Positions 17 through 11,457 of a stretch of DNA of 64,000 bases are shown here, in pieces. The notes below the pieces were generated by a model. That model was not told the origin of the DNA. It saw only the letters and a list, made by a program, of their open reading frames with translations, and searched no databases. The DNA is from Gordonia sp. SID5947 (GTDB taxonomy: Bacteria; Actinomycetota; Actinomycetes; Mycobacteriales; Mycobacteriaceae). The stretch covers positions 2,976,001 to 3,040,000 of the forward strand of contig NZ_WWHU01000001.1 in the NCBI RefSeq assembly GCF_009862785.1, read 5' to 3'. Both the position numbers and the translations under genes were made by a program. Each line of letters begins with the position of its first letter. The first letter of the stretch is position 1.

Positions 17-1378
17 TCACAGGCCCGTCCCGGGAATCCAGCTCGTGCCCGCCAGCGGAACCCTCGCCATCGCCGACGCCTCGATCGAGATCGCAACGAG
101 GTCTTCGGGTTCCAGATGCTGGACATGCGCCTTGCCACATGCACGGGCGATGGTCTGGGCCTCCATCGTCATCACGCGCAGAAAGTTGGCGAGCCGGCGC
201 CCGCCCTCGACGGGATCGAATCGTGCGGCGAGTTGCGGATCCTGCGTGGTGATACCCGCCGGGTCTCTGCCGTCCTGGAAGTCGTCGTAATAGCCGGCAG
301 CAGAACCCAGCTGCTCGTACTCCGCGGCATGGCGAGGATCGTTGTCACCGAGCGCGATCAGGGCAGCGGTGCCGATCGCGACCGCATCGGCACCGAGCGC
401 CATCGCCTTCGCGACGTCGGCACCGTTGCGGATCCCACCGGACACGATCAGCTGTACCCCACCGTCGCCCGTGCCTCCGCCCACACCGGTCCGATGGACG
501 CCCAACTCCTGCAACGCCTGTACGGCCTGCGGGATCGCGGCGAGGGTGGGGATGCCCACATGTTCGATGAAGACGTCCTGCGTGGCGGCCGTCCCACCCT
601 GCATGCCGTCGACCACCACCACGTCGGCGCCGGAGTGCACCGCGAGCTTGACGTCGTAGTACGTGCGACTGGCCCCGACCTTCACATAGATCGGCTTCTC
701 CCAGTCGGTGATCTCGCGGAGCTCGTTGATCTTGATCGCCAGGTCGTCGGGACCCGTCCAGTCGGGATGACGCGACGCGCTGCGCTGATCGATGCCCTCG
801 GGGAGAGTGCGCATGCCAGCGACACGTTCGGAGATCTTCTGTCCCAAAAGCATTCCACCGCCACCAGGTTTGGCGCCCTGGCCGAGTACGATCTCGATGG
901 CGTCGGCGCGGCGCAGGTCGTCGGGGTTCATGCCGTAACGCGACGGCAGATACTGGTAGACGAGGTTCTTGGACTGTCCTCGCTCTTCGGTGGTCATCCC
1001 GCCGTCGCCGGTGGTGGTCGATGTCCCCACCTCCGATGCACCACGGCCGAGTGCCTCCTTGGCACGACCGGAGAGCGCACCGAAGCTCATGCCCGCGATG
1101 GTGACCGGAATGTCGAGGTGCAGCGGATATTTGGCGTTTCGGCTCCCCAGCACGACGTCGGTGTCACACTTCTCGCGGTAACCCTCGAGCGGGTAGCGCG
1201 ACATCGATGCGCCAAGGAAGAGCAGGTCGTCGAAATGTGGCAGCTTCCGCTTGGCGCCCCAGCCCCGGATGTCGTAGATGCCGGTCTCGGCGGCCCGCTG
1301 GATCGCTGCGATGGTGGTGCGGTCGAAGGTGGCGGACTCACGCAGGCCACGCTGTTCGACGGTCAGGTTGTCGGTCAT
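17..1378 (-). CDS. glxD: GlxD/MgsC-like FMN-binding glutamate synthase subunit
   Basis: The protein (453 aa) matches the FMN-binding synthase domain of glutamate synthase as a stand-alone subunit. It would form glutamate or N-methylglutamate from 2-oxoglutarate and an amide-derived amine, with the GlxB and GlxC partners encoded just upstream. The family signatures GAKPGGGGMLLGQKI (about residue 170) and SGGIRNGADVAKAMALGADA (about 313) mark the flavin/substrate barrel. Odd: the region that normally carries the three 3Fe-4S cysteines reads GYYDDFQDGRDPAGITTQD, with no cysteine, and only two cysteines occur in the whole protein, so an iron-sulfur centre looks absent. The ATG start has GGAGAA about 6 nt upstream. 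It is the last visible gene of the cluster; further genes may lie beyond the window edge. Confidence 0.88.
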   Translation of the reverse strand: MTDNLTVEQRGLRESATFDRTTIAAIQRAAETGIYDIRGWGAKRKLPHFDDLLFLGASMSRYPLEGYREKCDTDVVLGSRNAKYPLHLDIPVTIAGMSFGALSGRAKEALGRGASEVGTSTTTGDGGMTTEERGQSKNLVYQYLPSRYGMNPDDLRRADAIEIVLGQGAKPGGGGMLLGQKISERVAGMRTLPEGIDQRSASRHPDWTGPDDLAIKINELREITDWEKPIYVKVGASRTYYDVKLAVHSGADVVVVDGMQGGTAATQDVFIEHVGIPTLAAIPQAVQALQELGVHRTGVGGGTGDGGVQLIVSGGIRNGADVAKAMALGADAVAIGTAALIALGDNDPRHAAEYEQLGSAAGYYDDFQDGRDPAGITTQDPQLAARFDPVEGGRRLANFLRVMTMEAQTIARACGKAHVQHLEPEDLVAISIEASAMARVPLAGTSWIPGTGL

Positions 1379-1485: not shown

Positions 1486-2181
1486 TCAGTACGCGGACGA
1501 GTTGTCGACGTGGAAGTGGTACAGCTCGCGAGCCGACCCGTAGCGGGTGTAGTCCGCGGGGTCGTCATCCCTGAACCCGGCCGCCTTCAGGAGGCCGGCG
1601 AGTTCTTCGAGATGCTCGGCACGCATCGGCTTCGAGATGCAATCCGCACCGAGCGATCCCACGTCGCCCCGGACATAGATGTGCGTCTCGTAGATCGAAT
1701 CACCCAGGCCGTCTGCGGCATTCCCACGGATCACCAACCGACCCGCCTGTGCCATGAACGCGCTGTTGTGACCGACGTTCCCGCCGATGACGATGTCGGC
1801 GCCCTTCATGGAGATCCCGCATCGTGCCGCGGCGTCACCCTCGACGACCAGGAGACCTCCGTGTGCGGTGGCGCCTGCCGACTGCGATGCGTTGCCCTTG
1901 ACCACCACGGTCCCACTCATCATGTTCTCGGCCACACCGGTTCCGGCGTTGCCGTTGATGATCACTTCGGCCTTCTGATTCATCCCGGCCGCGTAGTAAC
2001 CGACATGCCCGTTGACGGTGATCTTCACCGGGGCGTCGACCCCCGCCGCGACGCTGTGGGCGCCCGACGGGTTCTCCACGACGATCTCGCCGGCGATCTC
2101 GTCACCATGCAGTGCCGCGTTGACGTCACGCAGCGACGTGGTCGCGAGATCGAAGACATGATTGGGGTTCAGCGTGTCCAT
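1486..2181 (-). CDS. glxC: GlxC/MgsB-like beta-helix (GXGXG) subunit
   Basis: The 231-aa protein is a stand-alone version of the C-terminal GXGXG beta-helix domain of glutamate synthase. Repeated G-x-G-x-G patterns run through it (VNGHVGYYAAGM, INGNAGTGVAENM, VKGNASQSAGATAHGG, IGGNVGHNSAF), one per helical turn. The domain is structural: it couples the amidotransferase and FMN domains and helps form the ammonia or methylamine tunnel. The ATG start overlaps the end of glxB by 13 nt, so translation is probably coupled. A 107-bp spacer holding a repeat separates it from glxD. Confidence 0.88.
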   Translation of the reverse strand: MDTLNPNHVFDLATTSLRDVNAALHGDEIAGEIVVENPSGAHSVAAGVDAPVKITVNGHVGYYAAGMNQKAEVIINGNAGTGVAENMMSGTVVVKGNASQSAGATAHGGLLVVEGDAAARCGISMKGADIVIGGNVGHNSAFMAQAGRLVIRGNAADGLGDSIYETHIYVRGDVGSLGADCISKPMRAEHLEELAGLLKAAGFRDDDPADYTRYGSARELYHFHVDNSSAY

Positions 2182-3068
2182 GCGTAGACCACCTCCGGCT
2201 CGGGTTCCCAGATGCGTGCATTCTCGACGCCAGGCAGATCAGCGAGCGCGCGATACTCGCTCGCCATCGCGACCCAGTCGTCGGTTTCGGCGATCACCGC
2301 CGGCTTACAGGCGATGGCATCGCGTACCACCGCGAACGAATCGTGATTCGACACCACCAGCGTGTAGAAGCCGTCGAAGGTGGCACACACCTCCTTCAGC
2401 GCCGTCTCGACATCCTTGCCCTGCGCGAGCTGATGTGCGACGAAGCGGGCACCCACCTCGGTGTCGTTCTCACTGTCGAATTCGATTCCGTGCGCCCGCA
2501 ATTCGCGACGGATGGTGGCGTGGTTCGCGAACGACCCGTTGTGGACCAGACACTGCTCCGGACCCACGGCGTACGGGTGCGCCCCCGACGGGGTCACCGC
2601 GGACTCGGTGGCCATCCGGGTGTGCCCGACGCCCTGCCAGCCCGTCGCCGCGGGAAGATTCCAGGCTTGCACGAGGTCGCGGGGTGCGCCGACACCTTTG
2701 AGCACGGTGAGATCGGCACCGAATCCGGCGACCAGCGCTTCCGGGTACACCGCTCTCGCCGCCGCGAGAACCTCCTCTGCGCTCACCGCCGCGGTCAGCA
2801 GGAGTGTGTCGTCCACCAGCCGAGCATCCACCGGTGAGCCGAGGACCTCACCCACCATCGCTCGTGCGGCCGCGGTGTCGTCGACGCCGGTCTCCAGCAT
2901 CGACACGCAACCGTGTCCGGACGGTGACCAGGTCGGGTCACCATAGACGGCGACGCCTGCCGAGTCGGCGCCTCGATCCTGCATCTCGCCCAGCATGCCG
3001 CTGAGCAACTCCCCCAGCCGGGGATGGAGTTCGGGGTTGCGCAGGTGCAACCCGACGATTCCACACAT
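2169..3068 (-). CDS. glxB: GlxB/MgsA-like class II glutamine amidotransferase
   Basis: The protein (299 aa) begins MCGIVGLHL. Removal of the initiator Met would expose Cys-2, the catalytic nucleophile of class II (Ntn) glutamine amidotransferases. The family blocks DRGADSAG (about 32), GHTRMATES and VHNGSFANHATIR (about 150-170) and SENDTEVGARF (about 185) are present. In GltS relatives this subunit cleaves glutamine; in the N-methylglutamate synthase version the donor is thought to be gamma-glutamylmethylamide or methylamine. It lies 19 nt downstream of the synthetase gene and overlaps glxC, so the three subunits are expressed together. The neighbouring N-demethylase genes favour the methylated-amine reading over general nitrogen assimilation. 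Confidence 0.87.
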   Translation of the reverse strand: MCGIVGLHLRNPELHPRLGELLSGMLGEMQDRGADSAGVAVYGDPTWSPSGHGCVSMLETGVDDTAAARAMVGEVLGSPVDARLVDDTLLLTAAVSAEEVLAAARAVYPEALVAGFGADLTVLKGVGAPRDLVQAWNLPAATGWQGVGHTRMATESAVTPSGAHPYAVGPEQCLVHNGSFANHATIRRELRAHGIEFDSENDTEVGARFVAHQLAQGKDVETALKEVCATFDGFYTLVVSNHDSFAVVRDAIACKPAVIAETDDWVAMASEYRALADLPGVENARIWEPEPEVVYAWTR

Positions 3069-3087: not shown

Positions 3088-4432
3088 TCAGAAGGCGGTC
3101 AGATAGTTGTCGATCTCCCACGGCGACACCGCGGAGTGCCAGGCGAAGAACTCCTCCCGCTTGAGTCGCGAGAAGTATTCGGACACCGGAGCATCACCAC
3201 CGGCCCAGTCATCCGGCACGGCCGCGTCCAGTACCCCGCCGATCACGGCGTCGGCGTCGAGCGCGTCGACGGCATGCAGCAAGGTGAGCGGCAGGGCTCC
3301 GACATGCTCGGGGCAGGTGCCGATCGCCCCCGGGTCGAGACTGCGCTTGATGCCGTCGAGCCCGGCGCCGAGCGCGGCCGCGATGGCGAGGTACGGATTC
3401 GCCGAACCGTCTCCGCCGCGCAATTCCACCCGCTGGTCGTCGGGCACGCGGACATAATGAGTGCGGTCGTTGCCGCCATAGGTCGGCCGCCGAGGCGCCC
3501 ACGACGCCCCGAACGTGTGGCCGTCGCACCGGTTCTCTTGTACGAGTTGACCGTTGGCGCCATCACCGCCTGCAGGGCGGCGGCGTGTTCGAGCACACCT
3601 CCGACAAAGCCGTACGCGGTGGATGACAACCCGAGGCCTCGCTCGTCCTCGTCCGGCGCCCCGCGAACACCGGGGCACCGCCCGAGGTCAGCGAGAGGTG
3701 AAGGTGCAGCCCAGAACCGGTGCGCTCCGCGAACGGCTTGGGCATGAAGGTCGCGACCATCCCACGCTCGGCGGCGATGGTGGACAACAGGTATCGCAAC
3801 GTGACAACCCGGTCGGCGGTGGTGAGCGCCTCGGCGTACGTGAAATTCTGCTCGAACTGACCGTTCCCGTCCTCGTGGTCATTGGCGTAGTTGCCCCACC
3901 CCAGTTGATTCATGGCGGTCGACACCGCGGTCAGATGGTCGTACATGCGGGTCAGGCCGCGAACGTCGTAGCACGGTTGATCGGAATCGTCGGCGGCATC
4001 CGCGGTGATCAGCGACCCGTCGACGGCACGCTTGAGAAGGAAGTACTCGACCTCGGCGCCGACCCATGGCTCGAATCCGGCATCGGCGGCCTGGGCGACC
4101 AGCGTCTTGAGAATGTTGCGGGGCGCGAACGGCCACGGCTTGCCCTGCACATGCGGGTCGCAATGAACCAGTGCGAGCCCTTCCTTGATGAAGGGGATCG
4201 GGAGAAACGACGACACGTCCGGGATCGCCACCAGATCGGGATCCTTCGGCTCCTGTCCGATCGCCCCCACGGCGTAGCCCGCGAAACCCACTCCGTCGGT
4301 GGCGAGTTCGTCGACTGCCTCGATCGGGACTAGTTTGGCACATGGCTTGCCCCGGAGGTCGACGAAGAGGGCCAGGATGAACTTCGTCCCGGCGGCCGCA
4401 CAGAGGTCGGCGAGAGCGTGTGTGTCGGTCAT
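3088..4432 (-). pseudogene. Glutamine synthetase III / gamma-glutamylmethylamide synthetase-like, two apparent frameshifts
   Basis: Across three frames this reads as one roughly 449-codon GlnT/GmaS-type ligase, the usual length. It joins glutamate to ammonia or an alkylamine using ATP. The first frame (from ATG at 4432) carries [26 protein letters not shown] and [21 protein letters not shown] 1-nt loss at the C4 run at 3659-3662 moves to a second frame ([29 protein letters not shown]). A second 1-nt loss near 3516-3521 moves to the frame with [26 protein letters not shown] sequence and [20 protein letters not shown], ending DNYLTAF. Both shifts have the same sign, so they do not compensate. 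The intact operon around it and similar shifts elsewhere suggest sequence error. If real, the gene is dead. Neighbours GlxBCD and Dmm proteins favour GmaS function. Confidence 0.8.
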
Positions 4433-4644: not shown

Positions 4645-6003
4645 TCAGGAGGTCGCAAGATCTCGTGGTGGCCCGGCGACGTCCCCGGGCTCGGCGGAGG
4701 CTGCCCGCCCGATCATGGCCTCCGTCAACCCGGATCCGTGACCGACCCCTGCTGCCGGGATCTCGTATGCCGTCTCGGCATGAACGGTCGAGTCGAGGCC
4801 CGTCATCTCGGTCTCCTCGTCGACACGCAGTCTCATGACCTTGTTGAGTCCCTTGGCTATCAACCAGGTCATGACGAACGAGTACGTGCAGGTGATGACG
4901 ATGCCGGCGAGTTCGCGCCACAGGACCGCGATGTCACCGCCGAACAGGATGCCCTGCACCCCCGCCGGGGCCGACCCCGAGGCGAACAGGACGATGCAGA
5001 GTGTGCCCACGATGCCGCCGATGCCGTGCACCGCGAAGGCATCGAGGGTGTCGTCGACCTTGAACTTGCTCTTGAAGCTCAGACACAGGGCGACAACACC
5101 ACTCGCGACGATGCCGACACCGAGCGCACCGACGGGACTCATGGTGTTCGCCGACGGCGTGATACCGACGAGGCCCGCGATGGCACCGGTCATCAAGCCC
5201 AGCGAGGTCACATGCCCCTCGCGGATACGCTCGACGATGCAGAAGCCGATCATGCCTGCCCCACCCGCGAGCAACGTGTTGAGGATGACGAACTGGGTGA
5301 GAAAGTTGGCACCGCCCGCGCAACTCCCGTTGAACCCGAACCATCCGAACCACAGGATGCCGCCACCGAGCAGTGCGAGTGGGACGTTGTGTGGTCGCTC
5401 CGTCCGGCGACGACGTGCACCGAGGACCATCGCCAGCGCGAGCGCGGCGACACCCGCATTCATGTGCACCGCGGTACCGCCGGCATAGTCGTGGATCTTG
5501 ATGTCGTTCAACAGGAAACCGCCGCTGTAGCCGTCGCCGTCGGCGGCGAACACCCAGTGCGCCACCGGGAAGTAGACCAGCGTCAGCCAGATCGGTGCGA
5601 ACACCAGCCATGCGGTGAACTTCATGCGGCCCGCTGCACCGCTGGCGACGATGGCCACGGTGATCGCGGCGAAGAGGATGAACCATGCCGCGATGTAGAG
5701 CACCTGGATGCCGCCGGACCCGTCGTCGGACATCCACTGGCTCAATCCGATGTAGTCGGCCGGGTTGCCGATGATCCCCCAATCCTTCACCGACGGCCCG
5801 GAGACCAGCCCGTAGCCGAACAGAACATAGAGAACGCAGGTGATGCCGAGGGTCGCGAGCACCATGGTCATCATGTTGAGCACATTGCGTGCTCCGACCA
5901 TGCCGCCGTAGTAGAGCGCCAGGCCGGGAAACATCAGCAGGACGAACACGAATGCCGCGAGCATCCAGGAGAGATCCGCGTGCGCGGAGAGAACTGCTTC
6001 CAT
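4645..6003 (-). CDS. amt: Ammonium/methylammonium transporter
   Basis: The 452-aa protein is an Amt/MEP/Rh channel with about eleven membrane helices. The family signatures DYAGGTAVHMNAGVAALALA (about 175-195) and DDTLDAFAVHGIGGIVGT (about 305-322) carry the pore histidines. Family members take up ammonium and also methylammonium, which suits a position between amine N-demethylase genes and an amide synthetase. The start lies 49 nt after the preceding heme-protein gene, so it is probably read through from that operon. A hairpin follows 28 bp downstream. The C-terminal tail is polar and about 60 aa long. Confidence 0.92.
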   Translation of the reverse strand: MEAVLSAHADLSWMLAAFVFVLLMFPGLALYYGGMVGARNVLNMMTMVLATLGITCVLYVLFGYGLVSGPSVKDWGIIGNPADYIGLSQWMSDDGSGGIQVLYIAAWFILFAAITVAIVASGAAGRMKFTAWLVFAPIWLTLVYFPVAHWVFAADGDGYSGGFLLNDIKIHDYAGGTAVHMNAGVAALALAMVLGARRRRTERPHNVPLALLGGGILWFGWFGFNGSCAGGANFLTQFVILNTLLAGGAGMIGFCIVERIREGHVTSLGLMTGAIAGLVGITPSANTMSPVGALGVGIVASGVVALCLSFKSKFKVDDTLDAFAVHGIGGIVGTLCIVLFASGSAPAGVQGILFGGDIAVLWRELAGIVITCTYSFVMTWLIAKGLNKVMRLRVDEETEMTGLDSTVHAETAYEIPAAGVGHGSGLTEAMIGRAASAEPGDVAGPPRDLATS

Positions 6004-6052: not shown

Positions 6053-7078
6053 TCAGCTGCGGAGATACGCGACCACGTCGTCGCGGTAGTCGAGGAAGCC
6101 CTTGTACGAGGCGATGGGGTCGCTCAGCGTCTCGATCACGGTCGCGAGTTGCTGCGCCCAGGCAGGGATACGCCGGACTTCCTCCAGCGATGCCATGAAG
6201 GTCCGGATGTTGAAGGTCACCGCACCTGTCATCGGCAACCGGATGAAGTGCTCGAGCTCGATTCGCAGTCGCGCGCGAGCGAAGTCGTTGTCGTCGATCA
6301 TCTGTGGGATGTCATGACGCCACGACGGCAACTCCTCGAGACTCACGTCGAGCTTGGGGGAGTCCGATGCCGACAGGGTCCAGTTCACCCTGCGGTAGAC
6401 CTGGTCGGCCGGCAACCTGCGGAGGAACTGCTCGGCCCGCGCCACGACTCCGTCGCGGATCAGACCCGGGACGGGCGCATGGATCTCGTATATGTCCATG
6501 CCGACGTCGAAGGTCACCGACCATGCGGCGGCGAACGTGACGGCGCCCGCATCGAAGTACAGTCGGCCATCCCGCTCGATCACCAGCAGGAGGTCGTCGG
6601 GCACCTCACGCGCCAGGAAGTCGAGCGGACCGTGCGGAAGGGAGCCGCCGTCGTTCAGCACGAAGTACTGATCGGTCTCGAGAAGATCATTGCGCCAATG
6701 GAATCGGGCATCGCCGTATTCGGTCAGCCGCATCACGTCAGGGTGGCCGACGGCCAGATCCCGCAAGTAGTAGAGCAGCAGATCCCAGCAGGCAGGCTCC
6801 ATCCCGCGACGGACCTTGACGCGGGGCGGATCCGCGTCGAGGATTCGTCGCCGCTCGGCCATGATGATCGGGTAGTCGGCGCCGCCGAGGTCGACGATGT
6901 GTCGCCCCCATTCGCCTGCCCTGGTGGCTCGGGGGACACGAGCGGGCTCCACGTTGACGGAGTATCGGAACTCGGCGAGGTCGTCGGGGAACGGCCACGG
7001 AAGATTGGCCAGGTGATCGGCGGGACCCGGGAGAATGTCGCCCGGCGCGGTGGCTGATGATCCGGCAGTGACGTTCAC
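6053..7078 (-). CDS. Heme-dependent oxidative N-demethylase subunit (DUF3445, DmmC-like, copy 2)
   Basis: This 341-aa protein belongs to DUF3445, the heme-binding PAS-like catalytic subunit of oxidative N-demethylase / dimethylamine monooxygenase. It resembles the N-terminal two thirds of the fusion gene upstream: both have PFPFxxDxxRYSxNVEPA-like starts, DVGMxxxEIHxPVP, QVYRRVNWTLS and IELEHFIRLPMTGAVTFNIRTFM. I chose the GTG at 7076-7078, which overlaps the stop of the reductase gene by 4 nt (GTGA); a longer reading upstream would lie inside that gene. The protein should take electrons from the adjacent reductase, reduce O2 at heme and release a demethylated amine plus formaldehyde. It is the C component of the second A-B-C cassette. 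The substrate is not known. Confidence 0.85.
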   Translation of the reverse strand: MNVTAGSSATAPGDILPGPADHLANLPWPFPDDLAEFRYSVNVEPARVPRATRAGEWGRHIVDLGGADYPIIMAERRRILDADPPRVKVRRGMEPACWDLLLYYLRDLAVGHPDVMRLTEYGDARFHWRNDLLETDQYFVLNDGGSLPHGPLDFLAREVPDDLLLVIERDGRLYFDAGAVTFAAAWSVTFDVGMDIYEIHAPVPGLIRDGVVARAEQFLRRLPADQVYRRVNWTLSASDSPKLDVSLEELPSWRHDIPQMIDDNDFARARLRIELEHFIRLPMTGAVTFNIRTFMASLEEVRRIPAWAQQLATVIETLSDPIASYKGFLDYRDDVVAYLRS

Positions 7079-8067
7079 AGGTCCACCTCGATGTCCCGGC
7101 CGCGGGAGACACAGCACAGCATGGTGTCGCCGGCCGCCCGCTCGTCGACGCTCAGCACGAAGTCCCGATGGTCGATCACGCCGGACCGGACACCGATACG
7201 ACACTCTCCGCAGACACCCTGTCGGCAGAGGTTCTCCACCCGGACACCGTGATCGAGGAGACGTTGTAACAGCGATACACCGGACGGCACTTCTATCACC
7301 GCACCCGTGCTCGCCACCGTGACCTGAAAGGCTTGCCCCGGATCCTGTTCAGGCGCCGAGAATCGCTCGAGATGAACTCGCGACGCCACCCATCCCGCCG
7401 TGTACGCGGCATCCTCGTACAGGTCGAGCAGCGCAGCCGGCCCGCAGGCGTAGGCGTGGGTGCCCAGCGGCTGCTGCACGAGACGGTCGGCGAGCACCCA
7501 TCGCGTGTCGTCGGAGCCCGACACCTCGAACAGGGTGATCGACGGACTCTCGGCGAGCGACCGCACGTCGGTGAGGTGCGCCGCGCTGCCCGGCCGGTAG
7601 GAGTAGACGATGTCTGCGGTACCGCCCAGGCGGGCGATGGAACGCGCATGGGACAAGATCGGCGTGATACCGATGCCGCCGGCGATCAGAAGCGCATGGT
7701 GCTGATCCCATACCGGGCCGAACATCGATCGCGGACCCTCGACATGGAGCACATCTCCTTCGGCGACGTTCTCGTGCAACCAGTCCGAGCCGCCCCCGGC
7801 GCCACGGCGCAACACCGAGATCCCGTAGTCCGTCGGAAGCATGCCGTCGCCGACGAGTGAGTAGGCGTTGCGATGTTCACCTGCGGTGACGATCACATGG
7901 CTTCCGGGCCGGAACGGAGTGAGCGGCCCACCGTCCGCCGGGACCAGCCGATAATGGTTGATCGCGGGGGTCAACGGCGTCACATCGACCACCCGCATCA
8001 CGCGCCGACCGGTGTCGTACCCGGGGTGACGATGAGCCGACACAATCGGTTCGTCGACGACCGTCAC
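7075..8067 (-). CDS. dmmB: PDR-type flavin/[2Fe-2S] oxidoreductase (DmmB-like, copy 2)
   Basis: The 330-aa protein has a flavin-binding barrel (HVIVTAGEHRNAYSLVG, about 70), an NAD(P)-binding domain (LLIAGGIGITPILSHA, about 135; YACGPAALLD, about 220) and a C-terminal plant-type [2Fe-2S] domain with CRQGVCGEC (C-x4-C-x2-C) and a distal Cys in LCCVSRG. This is the layout of phthalate dioxygenase reductase/VanB-type electron donors. The GTG start (8065-8067) overlaps the stop of the fusion gene and its own stop overlaps the next gene, so it is translated in a coupled chain. It is the expected electron supplier for the heme subunit encoded next. Confidence 0.88.
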   Translation of the reverse strand: MTVVDEPIVSAHRHPGYDTGRRVMRVVDVTPLTPAINHYRLVPADGGPLTPFRPGSHVIVTAGEHRNAYSLVGDGMLPTDYGISVLRRGAGGGSDWLHENVAEGDVLHVEGPRSMFGPVWDQHHALLIAGGIGITPILSHARSIARLGGTADIVYSYRPGSAAHLTDVRSLAESPSITLFEVSGSDDTRWVLADRLVQQPLGTHAYACGPAALLDLYEDAAYTAGWVASRVHLERFSAPEQDPGQAFQVTVASTGAVIEVPSGVSLLQRLLDHGVRVENLCRQGVCGECRIGVRSGVIDHRDFVLSVDERAAGDTMLCCVSRGRDIEVDL

Positions 8068-9584
8068 GAGGAGCCCTCCGCCCAGGAGCCGAGAAAGCTT
8101 CCCAGCGTGGCCGAATGATGCGCGTGCACCTCGAGCCGCCGGCCGCACCCGGGACAATCCACGACGCCGCCCGCCTCCGCTTCGACACGATGGGTGTCGC
8201 GGCAGTGCACGCAGTACAGCGGCAGGTCACGGGTGTGACTCGCGAAAGCCGAGAGCTCCTCGGGCACAGCGCCCTTCTCACGTGCGAGTGCGAGTGCGGT
8301 GAGAACATCGAACTGTCCGCCGACGATGTGGATGCGCACCCCGGTGCGAGACGATTCCAGTGCCGCGACCAATGCTGACCGATCTTCCTCGGCGTCAAGA
8401 GAATCGAGCACCAGGAGCCGAGTCGGAGCGATCGCCTCGGCCGTCGACACCCACGTATGGGCAACGTCCCCGACGACCGCCTCGTCGCCGACCGCCACCA
8501 CCAGGAACGACGTCCCCGCCGGATCGATCGCGTCCGGAGTGGTCGGCCACACGGGCAGGCCGTGGTCACTGCGCACCTCCGCGGTGGTCCGCTCGGCCGA
8601 GACCGCATCGCGGAGCCATCGCGCGGCCCGGTCCTTGTACTTGATGATGCCCTTGTAATCGGCCATGTCGTCAGGTAATTCGTCCAACACCTCGGCCGCA
8701 CGTCGTCGCCACGGCTCAACGGTGGCAACGACATCGAGGGGCAACATGTAGGTCCGGATGAGGAACATCACCGCGCCCGAATCGGGCAGTCGGATCAAGT
8801 GCTGAACCTCGACGCGCAGATGGACGAGTCGGCCGAAGGTGGCGTCATCGGCCTGCAGGATCATCTCGCGATCCGGACCCCATTCGGGGTACCGCTCGGT
8901 GGAGACGTCGAGTCGCCGTCCGATCGTCAACGTCCAGTTGGTCCGCCGGTACGGTCTGTGCGGCTGAAGACGCTTGAGGAACTCGTGCGCACGGGTGATG
9001 ACCCCCTCGTCGCGGACCCTCGGTACCGGACCGTGGATCTCCAGGAAGCTCATGCCGACGTCGAAGCCGAAGCTCCAGTCGGCCGCGAATGTCACCACAC
9101 CGGCATCTGCGAAGAGTTGCCCGGCACGGTGATCGAGCAGCACCACATCCTCCTGGATCTGGCCGCAGATGTATCGCAACGGTTCCTCGGGAAGCGTCGC
9201 GTCGTCTCCGTAGACGAAGGTGTCCTCGATTCCGAGCAGACTGTTCTCCCAATGCCATTCATCTCCGACAGCACGGAGAACGAAGTCGTCGGGATAACTC
9301 GTCGCGAGCTCGCGCATCAGGGTCAGCATCGCGTCCCACGCCGCAGGCCGCATATGCGGCAGCACTGCATGACGCGTGCCATCCGCGTCGAGCACAGCTG
9401 AGCGCTCGGACAGTTCGTGGTGGTACTCGTCGTCGATGTCGACGACCCGTTCACCCCACTGACCGATCGCGGTGGTGACGACGTGATCCGCCGGCTCGAC
9501 GTTGGTGCTGTACCGGTAGCGATCGTCGACGAAAGGAAACGGAAACCGTGCCGGCAGCGACGGGCCGGAAAGTGCGAGGGTCAC
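8064..9584 (-). CDS. Fused heme N-demethylase subunit and DmmA-like zinc-motif domain (DmmC1-DmmA2)
   Basis: A 506-aa protein joins two modules. Residues 1 to about 330 are a complete DUF3445 heme domain (PFPFVDDRYRYSTNVEPAD, FDVGMSFLEIHGPVP, RRTNWTLTIG, VEVQHLIRLPDSGAVMFLIR). Residues about 350-506 match the separate DmmA-like protein at 10510-11058, including two CxxC pairs (CVHC and CPGC) and a closing His/Gly-rich segment. The GTG start (9582-9584) overlaps the previous stop by 4 nt. Canonical systems encode these as separate subunits. Gene order A1-B1-(C1-A2)-B2-C2 implies that a duplicated cassette fused at the C1/A2 junction. The architecture should hold the two enzyme complexes together or allow subunit exchange between them. 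Function by homology; substrate unknown. Confidence 0.85.
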   Translation of the reverse strand: MTLALSGPSLPARFPFPFVDDRYRYSTNVEPADHVVTTAIGQWGERVVDIDDEYHHELSERSAVLDADGTRHAVLPHMRPAAWDAMLTLMRELATSYPDDFVLRAVGDEWHWENSLLGIEDTFVYGDDATLPEEPLRYICGQIQEDVVLLDHRAGQLFADAGVVTFAADWSFGFDVGMSFLEIHGPVPRVRDEGVITRAHEFLKRLQPHRPYRRTNWTLTIGRRLDVSTERYPEWGPDREMILQADDATFGRLVHLRVEVQHLIRLPDSGAVMFLIRTYMLPLDVVATVEPWRRRAAEVLDELPDDMADYKGIIKYKDRAARWLRDAVSAERTTAEVRSDHGLPVWPTTPDAIDPAGTSFLVVAVGDEAVVGDVAHTWVSTAEAIAPTRLLVLDSLDAEEDRSALVAALESSRTGVRIHIVGGQFDVLTALALAREKGAVPEELSAFASHTRDLPLYCVHCRDTHRVEAEAGGVVDCPGCGRRLEVHAHHSATLGSFLGSWAEGSS

Positions 9585-10513
9585 AGTGGTACCTCCAGTG
9601 TGCATCCTTCGGATGCGCGCGAGACGCATGGCATGAACGCGTCCCCGGCCCTCTTCTCCTCGTCGGTGAGGTAGAGGTCCCGGTGGACCGGGGTTCCGCC
9701 CGACAGGGGTAGGCGGCATTCACCGCATACGCCCTGTCGACAACGGTTGGGTATCGACATCCCGTGATCTTCCAGAGCTTCGAGTACCGAGGTCCCGGAT
9801 GGGATGTCCAGCGTGGCGGACGATTCGGTCAACCGCACGGCAAACCGGTCACCGGCCTCGAGCGCGTCCGCACCGAAACGCTCGACGTGGATCCTCGACT
9901 GCGGCCAGCCCAGGGCGGCCGCGGACTCGACCACGGTGTCGATCATGCCGACCGGGCCACACGCGTACATGTGGGTACCGACCGGCTGATCGGCCAGGAC
10001 CTGCGCGAGTCGTATGGCGAAGGACTCACGGTCGATGAACAGCTCCGCATCTCGGCCCGCCAGATCGACGACGTCGTCGATGTGTGCGGCATGCCCTTCA
10101 CGGAACACGTACAGCACCTGCACATCTCGTCCCCAGCGGCGGGCGGCCCGCAGGTGCGAGACGATGGGCGTGACGCCGATGCCACCCGCGAAGAACAGGT
10201 GCTTGCCGGCCCGCGCCGCCGGCGCGAAGGCGCTACGGGGCGATTCGACATCGATGACGTCGCCGATCGAGACACGGTCGTGCATCCACCGCGATCCACC
10301 GTTGCCCTCCGCGACGCGTAACACGGAGATGGAGTAGTGCGTCGGCGCAACGCCATCAGACGTCACGCTGTAAGCGTTCGTCCGCTCCCCCGCCGTGACG
10401 ACGAGATGGCTCCCGGGCACGAACCCGGGAAGCTCGGCGCCGTCGGGAGCCGCGAACGTGATCTCGCGGACCCCTCCCGCGGTGTCGACGACCGAGGTGA
10501 CGACCAGCTTCAT
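9581..10513 (-). CDS. dmmB: PDR-type flavin/[2Fe-2S] oxidoreductase (DmmB-like, copy 1)
   Basis: The 310-aa protein parallels the copy at 7075-8067: flavin barrel (SHLVVTAGERTNAYSVTS, about 47), nucleotide domain (LFFAGGIGVTPIVSHLR, about 110; YACGPVGMID, about 190) and C-terminal ferredoxin domain with CRQGVCGEC and a late Cys in MPCVSR. It passes electrons from NAD(P)H to the heme demethylase subunit. I start it at ATG 10511-10513, which overlaps the stop of the DmmA-like gene (ATGA); a longer upstream reading in this frame lies entirely inside that gene. It is the B component of cassette 1. Confidence 0.88.
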   Translation of the reverse strand: MKLVVTSVVDTAGGVREITFAAPDGAELPGFVPGSHLVVTAGERTNAYSVTSDGVAPTHYSISVLRVAEGNGGSRWMHDRVSIGDVIDVESPRSAFAPAARAGKHLFFAGGIGVTPIVSHLRAARRWGRDVQVLYVFREGHAAHIDDVVDLAGRDAELFIDRESFAIRLAQVLADQPVGTHMYACGPVGMIDTVVESAAALGWPQSRIHVERFGADALEAGDRFAVRLTESSATLDIPSGTSVLEALEDHGMSIPNRCRQGVCGECRLPLSGGTPVHRDLYLTDEEKRAGDAFMPCVSRASEGCTLEVPL

Positions 10514-11058
10514 GATGCGTTCTCCCCTGGCGGCACTGCCGTCTCCGCGTCGACCATGTAGCCGAGGTACCGGCCGGATCGTCGGGAGACGTGGTGGTAG
10601 ATGAGCAGATTGCGGTCGCAGCCCGCGCACACGACGACCTCGCCGACCACCGCAGGCGTCGCGGTCACCGCTCGGCAATGGGTGCACGAGACCTCGAGGT
10701 CGCCGAATTCGGTTGTCGTCACATAGATCTCGTCGTCTTCCAACCCCGCCGAGTGGGCGACGCCGCGCAGTGCGAGCGCGGCCCCCGCGGGCCCGACGAT
10801 GATCACCCGGATGCCCACCCGGGCCTCCATCAGCTCCACCCGCAACGCGGATGCGGCTCGATCGGGTCCGGAGAAGGTCAGCACCCGGTGCTCGGCGTCG
10901 CCCGGTAACGCGTCTCTCCATCGCGCGATCTCGACGAGCGCAGGGTCGCCCACGCCGATGAGCAGGAACGACCTGCCCGACACCTCGGGCAGGTCGTCAC
11001 CGATCGGCGCCCCTGGTCGCGCCCAGACGGGGATGCTGGAGACCGAGATCTGTGACAT
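10510..11058 (-). CDS. dmmA: DmmA-like dimethylamine monooxygenase subunit (copy 1)
   Basis: The 182-aa protein has an alpha/beta N-terminal part (FLLIGVGDPALVEIARWRD; RVGIRVIIVGPAG) and a C-terminal segment with two CxxC pairs (CTHC about 136 and CAGC about 153) followed by a His-rich stretch (YHHVSRRSGRYLGYM). This resembles the small DmmA family protein and suggests a zinc or iron site. In characterised relatives it is required for the monooxygenase, but its exact role is not settled. It starts 6 nt after the cupin gene and overlaps the reductase gene by 4 nt. Its closest relative here is the C-terminal domain of the downstream fusion protein. Confidence 0.8.
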   Translation of the reverse strand: MSQISVSSIPVWARPGAPIGDDLPEVSGRSFLLIGVGDPALVEIARWRDALPGDAEHRVLTFSGPDRAASALRVELMEARVGIRVIIVGPAGAALALRGVAHSAGLEDDEIYVTTTEFGDLEVSCTHCRAVTATPAVVGEVVVCAGCDRNLLIYHHVSRRSGRYLGYMVDAETAVPPGENAS

Positions 11059-11064
11059 CGGTCC

Positions 11065-11457
11065 TCAGAGGAGATCTGCGTCGCGATGCCCGGCATAGAA
11101 CGCGAGGGCATAGCTCGGTGTGCTGAAGTGGATCTTCGACCCCTTGGGGAAGAAGATCGCGTCCTTGGCCTTGGCCACCGCGGTCTGTCCGGTCTCTTTG
11201 TTCTCCAGCAGGAACTCGCCTTCGAGAACCACCTTCATCTCGTCGTACTCGTACTCGTAGTACAGCGGGTCGTCGGTGTGACGCAGTTCGAAGTAGCCGG
11301 AGCACATCACGCTGCCCTGCGGGTTCTCGTAGACGTCGCCGATGAATCCCTCGGTGCCCGGGTACTCCGCGTCGGGCATCTTGGGCAAGTTCTGCCAGGC
11401 ATCGCTGGTGACGAGAAACGGTGTCGCGGTGTCGGTGCTCTCCACGGTCATCTGCAT
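11065..11457 (-). CDS. EutQ-like cupin protein
   Basis: The 130-aa single-domain cupin has the EutQ-type core YEYDEMKVVLEGEFLLENKE (about 72-91) and DAIFFPKGSKIHFSTPSYAL (about 101-120). Cupin folds of this class bind a metal or small ligand, and EutQ itself belongs to ethanolamine use. Here the gene is the first of the minus-strand amine operon, 6 nt ahead of the DmmA-like gene. A role in amine or aldehyde handling, or as a ligand-binding accessory, is inferred from context only. Upstream is the 161-bp divergent promoter region shared with the kinase gene. Confidence 0.75.
   Translation of the reverse strand: MQMTVESTDTATPFLVTSDAWQNLPKMPDAEYPGTEGFIGDVYENPQGSVMCSGYFELRHTDDPLYYEYEYDEMKVVLEGEFLLENKETGQTAVAKAKDAIFFPKGSKIHFSTPSYALAFYAGHRDADLL

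Follow-up and report, generated by a model that had tools for sequence, protein, structure and literature searches.

A double N-demethylase operon with a fused C1-A2 protein in Gordonia and a possible serial route from trimethylamine to methylamine

Two N-demethylase cassettes in one operon

The actinomycete Gordonia sp. SID5947 carries an operon in which two gene sets of the DmmABC N-demethylase type follow one another and are linked by a gene fusion. The operon lies in a 64,000-nucleotide stretch of contig NZ_WWHU01000001.1 (positions 2,976,001 to 3,040,000), hereafter the window, and runs on its minus strand from position 11457 down to 17 in the order cupin, A1, B1, C1-A2, B2, C2, amt, a GmaS/GSIII-type gene and MgsABC-type genes. 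From A1 to C2 (11058-6053) the genes meet at four junctions, each a 4-nucleotide ATGA or GTGA overlap. The gene order given in the initial annotation (A, B, a C-A fusion, B and C, with 4-nucleotide overlaps) was borne out in its coordinates and junctions, as was its count of two reductases, two heme domains and two CxxC-CxxC domains, all confirmed by Pfam, NCBIfam and motif matches.

All of these genes are read from the minus strand. A1 (10510..11058) encodes a DmmA-type protein, composed of a nicotinamide adenine dinucleotide (phosphate) (NAD(P))-lobe-like domain and a CxxC-CxxC ribbon (PF22289, 2e-12). B1 (9581..10513) is an FNR-type reductase with a [2Fe-2S] domain (PF00111, PF22290; GGIGVTP and CRQGVCGEC) and B2 (7075..8067) is a second one (PF00111, 4.3e-10), placed in the B2 lineage; both match Fer2 and an NAD lobe in Pfam and retain the GGIGxTP, CGP and CRQGVCGEC motifs. 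Between them lies the C1-A2 fusion protein (8064..9584), 506 residues in one open frame, with PF11927 at residues 45-319 (2.3e-67, 227.7 bits, cut-off 25) and PF22289 at residues 456-499 (6.6e-11). Its C1 domain (residues 1-328, 8601..9584) is a heme-PAS domain of the alpha type of heme-dependent oxidative N-demethylase (HODM) (PDB 5lte, 319 bits; Foldseek 5lte, 1.3e-31). A linker that is likely flexible (residues 329-341, 8562..8600) leads to the DmmA-type A2 domain (residues 342-506 including the stop, 8064..8561), which belongs to the cassette-2 lineage (NF041259, 1.2e-28; A tree). C2 (6053..7078) is the second HODM alpha-type heme-PAS subunit (PF11927, 7.9e-54, 183.3 bits; 5lte, 226 bits; C2 lineage at 100*). 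Both A1 and the A2 domain exceed the cut-off of the DmmA-family NCBIfam model NF041259, and the A subunit resembles the NAD(P) lobe of an FNR reductase that has degenerated and gained a metal ribbon.

Each cassette holds the three subunit types of DmmABC from Ruegeria pomeroyi and Paracoccus aminophilus in the same order, P. aminophilus DmmC being 44% identical to C1 and 36% to C2, and in both systems methylamine pathway genes lie nearby or on the same replicon. DmmABC loci contain one set of separate genes together with a GcvT-type DmmD (PMC5520151, PMC4543880). The Gordonia locus differs in having two sets, a cross-set fusion, a cupin and no DmmD, and where DmmABC has three separate chains, C1 and A2 share a single frame. 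No GcvT-type DmmD was found beside the A-B-C genes, GCV_T matches lying elsewhere in the genome; according to PMC5520151, DmmD is dispensable for activity in E. coli. C1 is furthermore 48% identical over the fold to HODM of Pseudomonas mendocina (PDB 5lte/5lth), whose alpha subunit was solved as a separate chain, whereas C1 is fused to A2.

The reading tentatively favoured here, with a likelihood put slightly below even, is that two heme-PAS systems would act in series, C2 converting trimethylamine to dimethylamine and C1 dimethylamine to methylamine, with C1-A2 tethering both. Electrons from NAD(P)H would travel via the flavin and then the [2Fe-2S] centre of B to the heme in C. With O2, C would hydroxylate an N-methyl group, and the hydroxylated product would then break into formaldehyde and the demethylated amine. 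As the NAD lobe of the A subunit has no GGIGxTP motif, this subunit may act as a scaffold or as a relay. In Gordonia, the short disordered linker would hold C1 and A2 in a 1:1 ratio and retain dimethylamine close to the enzyme that acts on it next.

Candidate substrate of C2 and a likely methylamine route

A scan for named loci with a C2 alignment (the best 80 of 220 stretches) gave 79 loci, of which 51 hold both C types, 20 C1 alone and 8 C2 alone. Fourteen positions are conserved within C1 and within C2 but hold different residues in the two, and at nine of these DmmC-type proteins have the C1 residue (for example C1/C2 Q144/P160, Q261/E276, Q152/E168 and R295/Q310); C2 departs from HODM at positions common to C1 and the DmmC-type proteins. 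Over C1, C2 and DmmC-type proteins together, 42 positions are at least 97% conserved; the one His among them (H184 in C1) might, at a guess, be the heme ligand. These counts exclude five C rows that were long or divergent (L035, L038, L042 C2, L165 and L145).

The Tmm-Tdm route, a flavin monooxygenase followed by a trimethylamine N-oxide demethylase, leads to the same product, dimethylamine. In this genome no Tmm ortholog was found (best match 52 bits, against at least 560 for orthologs elsewhere). A Tdm candidate combining DUF1989 with GcvT was likewise absent, the matches to the two domains lying apart in this genome. Tmm was present in none of 10 genomes with C2 (best C2 match at least 371 bits; all others at most 292) against 11 of 30 without it, all with a C1- or DmmC-type protein (Fisher test, 0.038), and in a second set, 44 of the 79 named loci, in 2 of 25 genomes with both C types (one copy with a stop codon), in neither of two with a C2-alone locus and in 7 of 17 with a C1-alone locus, where C2 was not searched (7/17 against 2/25, Fisher test, 0.019); both tests ignore kinship, and the two sets have at least one species in common, which tempers the support they lend. 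The scarcity of Tmm where C2 occurs speaks for C2 taking over the first step of trimethylamine use.

The genes downstream of C2 are related to methylamine use. They encode an Amt ammonium/methylammonium transporter (4645..6003; TIGR00836, 400 bits, above the cut-off), a gamma-glutamylmethylamide synthetase of GmaS/GSIII type whose gene has two frame breaks (3088..4432; TIGR03105; indels relative to five relatives), an MgsA-like glutamine amidotransferase (2169..3068), an MgsB-like GXGXG protein (1486..2181) and an MgsC-like flavin mononucleotide (FMN) glutamate-synthase-domain protein (17..1378), the last three being 48%, 58% and 75% identical to MgsA, MgsB and MgsC of P. aminophilus. Beside amt, the operon holds MgsABC-type genes and a frame-broken GmaS-type gene of the N-methylglutamate pathway (GmaS, MgsABC, MgdABCD), and methylamine, the predicted product of C1, has a likely route to glutamate in the same operon, predicted to run through gamma-glutamylmethylamide and N-methylglutamate. 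An intact Gordonia glutamine synthetase (GS)-type protein is 39% identical to P. aminophilus GmaS, and its best structure matches are 7cql (362 bits), which we take to be GmaS, and 9qur (339 bits), named in its record as a glutamate-methylamine ligase; the next structure scores 197. Among the 51 named double loci, 47 are flanked by amt or GS/Mgs genes, the GS gene being present in 35.

The last step may differ from the known pathway, in that a single SoxB-like oxidase adjoins the operon in place of four Mgd subunits. This flavin adenine dinucleotide (FAD) oxidase lies right after MgsC, just beyond the window (seen at L033 10821-12005). Sixteen named Gordonia loci extend over 900 bases past MgsC, and in 14 of these a relative with 79-92% identity comes next; L057 and L072 have none. 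The oxidase is 25% identical to MgdA and may stand in for N-methylglutamate dehydrogenase; Mgd was sought next door only. On a Methylobacterium plasmid an A-B-C set adjoins glxBCD-like genes and glnT. At the other end, the operon's first gene encodes a 130-residue EutQ-like cupin (11065..11457; PF06249, 3.6e-13), the genome's sole EutQ match, which has a relative in 54 of the 79 named loci and in just one of the 20 C1-alone loci. In other actinomycetes EutQ-like cupins have been noted next to Tmo and Mao genes (PMC5023230).

Several observations weigh against C2 as the trimethylamine step of a series. At two of the 14 contrasting sites it is C2, not C1, that DmmC matches, and none of the 14 has been placed in the pocket. 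Mycobacterium sp. NAZ190054 carries C1, C2 and an intact Tmm, and some Rhodococcus loci hold only cassette 2. In the genome of R. wratislaviensis neither C1 nor a match to MgsC at E 1e-100 accompanies C2, so that C2 would there leave dimethylamine unused unless another enzyme takes over. In Corynebacterium variabile the C2 cassette (L105 3798-6304) follows allantoate-amidohydrolase-like and ornithine cyclodeaminase (OCD)/mu-crystallin-family genes, and a second, divergent C2-type cassette of G. jinhuaensis (L109 6455-10944) lies near a GbcA-like Rieske oxygenase, a solute-binding protein and an aminotransferase; these neighbours make other substrates possible. In the present strain, moreover, the GmaS-type gene is broken twice at about 3500-3670, the breaks lying about 150 bases apart by comparison with five relatives, of which L045 is one open frame; this is either a genuine pseudogene or a sequencing error.

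Some of these points are taken up by the strongest alternative, in which the substrate of C2 is a different N-methyl compound (such as methylamine, an N-methylated amino acid or a betaine) and C2 broadens the range of the operon instead of serving a series on trimethylamine. It would account for the Rhodococcus loci that hold cassette 2 by itself, for the Corynebacterium and G. jinhuaensis neighbourhoods and for the departure of C2 residues from DmmC, and is a serious contender, albeit one judged somewhat improbable given the amt or GS/Mgs flanks of nearly all double loci and the scarcity of Tmm beside C2. At the loci with cassette 2 only, the neighbours pointed to no common substrate. The pathway genes nearby are consistent with the suggestion in the initial annotation that the pair could act on successive methyl groups.

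The C1-A2 fusion and its recurrence

The fused frame has its lowest GC content at the second codon position in 10 of 10 blocks of 50 codons, so that the C1-A2 junction shows no phase break. An AlphaFold2 model built on 41 fusions (mean predicted local distance difference test score (pLDDT) 82; predicted template modelling score (pTM) 0.59) contains two mostly well-predicted parts with a confidence break at residues 329-341, where pLDDT falls below 50, as it also does in the stretches 169-192 and 227-235 of the C1 domain. The C1 part matches HODM alpha 5lte/5lth (Foldseek, E 1e-31, 48% identity), and the four Cys of the CxxC-CxxC ribbon are invariant across the 41 aligned fusions.

The joining of PF11927 to a DmmA-like C-terminus, for which the initial annotation proposed a search, recurs in other genomes. 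Among the best 120 of 801 homologs, 47 are full-length (500-532 residues) and the remaining 73 are unfused C1 proteins; in precomputed Pfam assignments both domains are present in 46 of the 47 among the matches listed, the protein of this strain included, the one with PF11927 alone being P0042. In the 29 of these 47 for which a motif search found both ends, 13-46 residues separate the last C1 motif from the first A2 motif. The fusion is found in 19 of the 20 named Gordonia loci that hold both cassettes, G. jinhuaensis being the exception, and all 19 fused loci of the named-locus scan are from Gordonia. Four of the eight listed genus members, this genome among the eight, carry the genes, and G. 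hankookensis is the nearest named locus to the window in the C tree.

Beyond Gordonia, C1-A2 fusions were found in Raineyella and in metagenomes. The Raineyella fluvialis protein P0041 and the database proteins P0043 and P0045-P0047 group with unfused Nocardioides-like or mycobacterial relatives, away from Gordonia. The position of P0042 depends on the tree: the C1 tree puts it next to an unfused mycobacterial row, the joined tree with Gordonia. On a tree of 41 selected rows the fused state requires four changes, at least three of them forced by starred branches, and a single fusion origin occurs in 0% of 200 bootstrap trees. A single fused clade, with 26 fused rows constrained together, was rejected (approximately unbiased test, p-AU 1.8e-40). 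The fusion therefore appears to recur across several lineages, by gains or by losses, between which the tree does not distinguish.

As for what is joined, A2 proteins cluster in the A tree, save for a few rows labelled by best tblastn hit, and their lineage includes the fused A2 domains and the A proteins of four cassette-2-only Rhodococcus loci. With A2 in the cassette-2 lineage, the fusion unites the heme subunit from one system with the accessory subunit from the other. The distances of the six subunits correlate across 36 double loci (r 0.68-0.87; C1-C2 0.82), as expected if the subunits travel together; these mirror-tree distances pair A2 with neither C preferentially, a further point against the tethered series.

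The fusion may alternatively be a nearly neutral indel between independent demethylases that merely share an operon, their domains being functionally uncoupled. In 12 of 13 unfused junctions a start codon for A2, in a different frame, shares a 4-nucleotide overlap with the stop of C1, so that a single indel is enough to fuse C1 to A2 without any selection for tethering; this too counts against the series. The linker is poorly predicted and varies in length, and the same gene set also exists as unfused operons, in G. jinhuaensis and in one actinomycete metagenome-assembled genome (L071). Against uncoupled domains stand the retention of the fused form in nearly every named Gordonia locus, its recurrence in other lineages, and the C2-A1 junction, which is fused in 0 of 10 loci where A1 directly follows C2. 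On this balance a neutral fusion is regarded as unlikely. A similar degree of doubt attaches to the boldest form of the serial reading, in which C2 would be a heme-PAS trimethylamine N-demethylase that yields dimethylamine straight from trimethylamine and O2, forms no trimethylamine N-oxide and replaces Tmm-Tdm in actinomycetes, and the recurrent fusion would mark a two-heme assembly passing dimethylamine from C2 to C1.

Origin and significance of the paired cassettes

The initial annotation derived the operon from tandem duplication of one A-B-C cassette, the first C then fusing to the second A. Paralogous cassettes and a fusion joining both were upheld, and a local duplication was not. The A-B-C order does occur twice, and B1 and B2 both fall inside the actinobacterial part of the B tree, outside of which pair the single-reductase Rhodococcus operons branch, which leaves either a later duplication of the reductase or its loss in Rhodococcus. 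The two cassettes are however only 32% (A), 45% (B) and 43% (C) identical in amino-acid sequence, and comparison of the C copies contradicts tandem duplication, since a tree of 171 proteins sets the C2 lineage (62 rows) apart, at 100*, from C1, proteobacterial DmmC and 5lte, which share the other side. A smaller C tree separates C2 again at 100*, not grouped with DmmC, and gives actinobacterial C1 as a single clade apart from DmmC a support of only 44. Rows with stops or short hits were removed before the C trees were built, and a distant PF11927 outgroup was not used for rooting because several of its open reading frames were in the wrong frame and branch lengths reached about 10.

Arrangements across genera speak likewise against a recent duplication. 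In the 51 double loci the order is 1-2 in 35 (19 of them fused), 2-1 in 12 and divergent in 4, all four of the latter in Cryobacterium, and single cassettes also occur. Five Rhodococcus loci of the 1-2 order (L094, L095, L099, L100 and L104) read A1-B1-C1-A2-C2 without B2, suggesting that one reductase probably serves both heme subunits. Unfused pairs are present in Nocardioides, Prauserella, Millisia, Blastococcus, Modestobacter, Rhodococcus, Mycobacterium, Cryobacterium and Corynebacterium, and their spread over many genera and orders implies that the cassette pair predates the fusion. A recent duplication is accordingly very improbable, and judged from the trees and identities the cassettes are old paralogs and not near copies. 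A frameshift or assembly error at the junction, which the two breaks in the GmaS-type gene of the same operon might bring to mind, is excluded for practical purposes, since the fusion is seen at 19 named loci of Gordonia and in a further 46 full-length proteins from databases.

No report of a DmmC-DmmA fusion or of a double Dmm operon was found in the part of the literature searched, which covered few subscription journals. The early steps of trimethylamine breakdown are poorly assigned in gram-positive bacteria; in one genome paper, only Tmo and an unverified ferredoxin-flavodoxin gene could be proposed as the demethylase (PMC5023230). A paired heme-PAS system with its own actinomycete lineage is a directly testable candidate for these steps, and a cross-system fusion in several lineages is the sort of finding that suggests successive enzymes to be in contact. 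The extension of the heme-PAS family past dimethylamine would, if true, be new.

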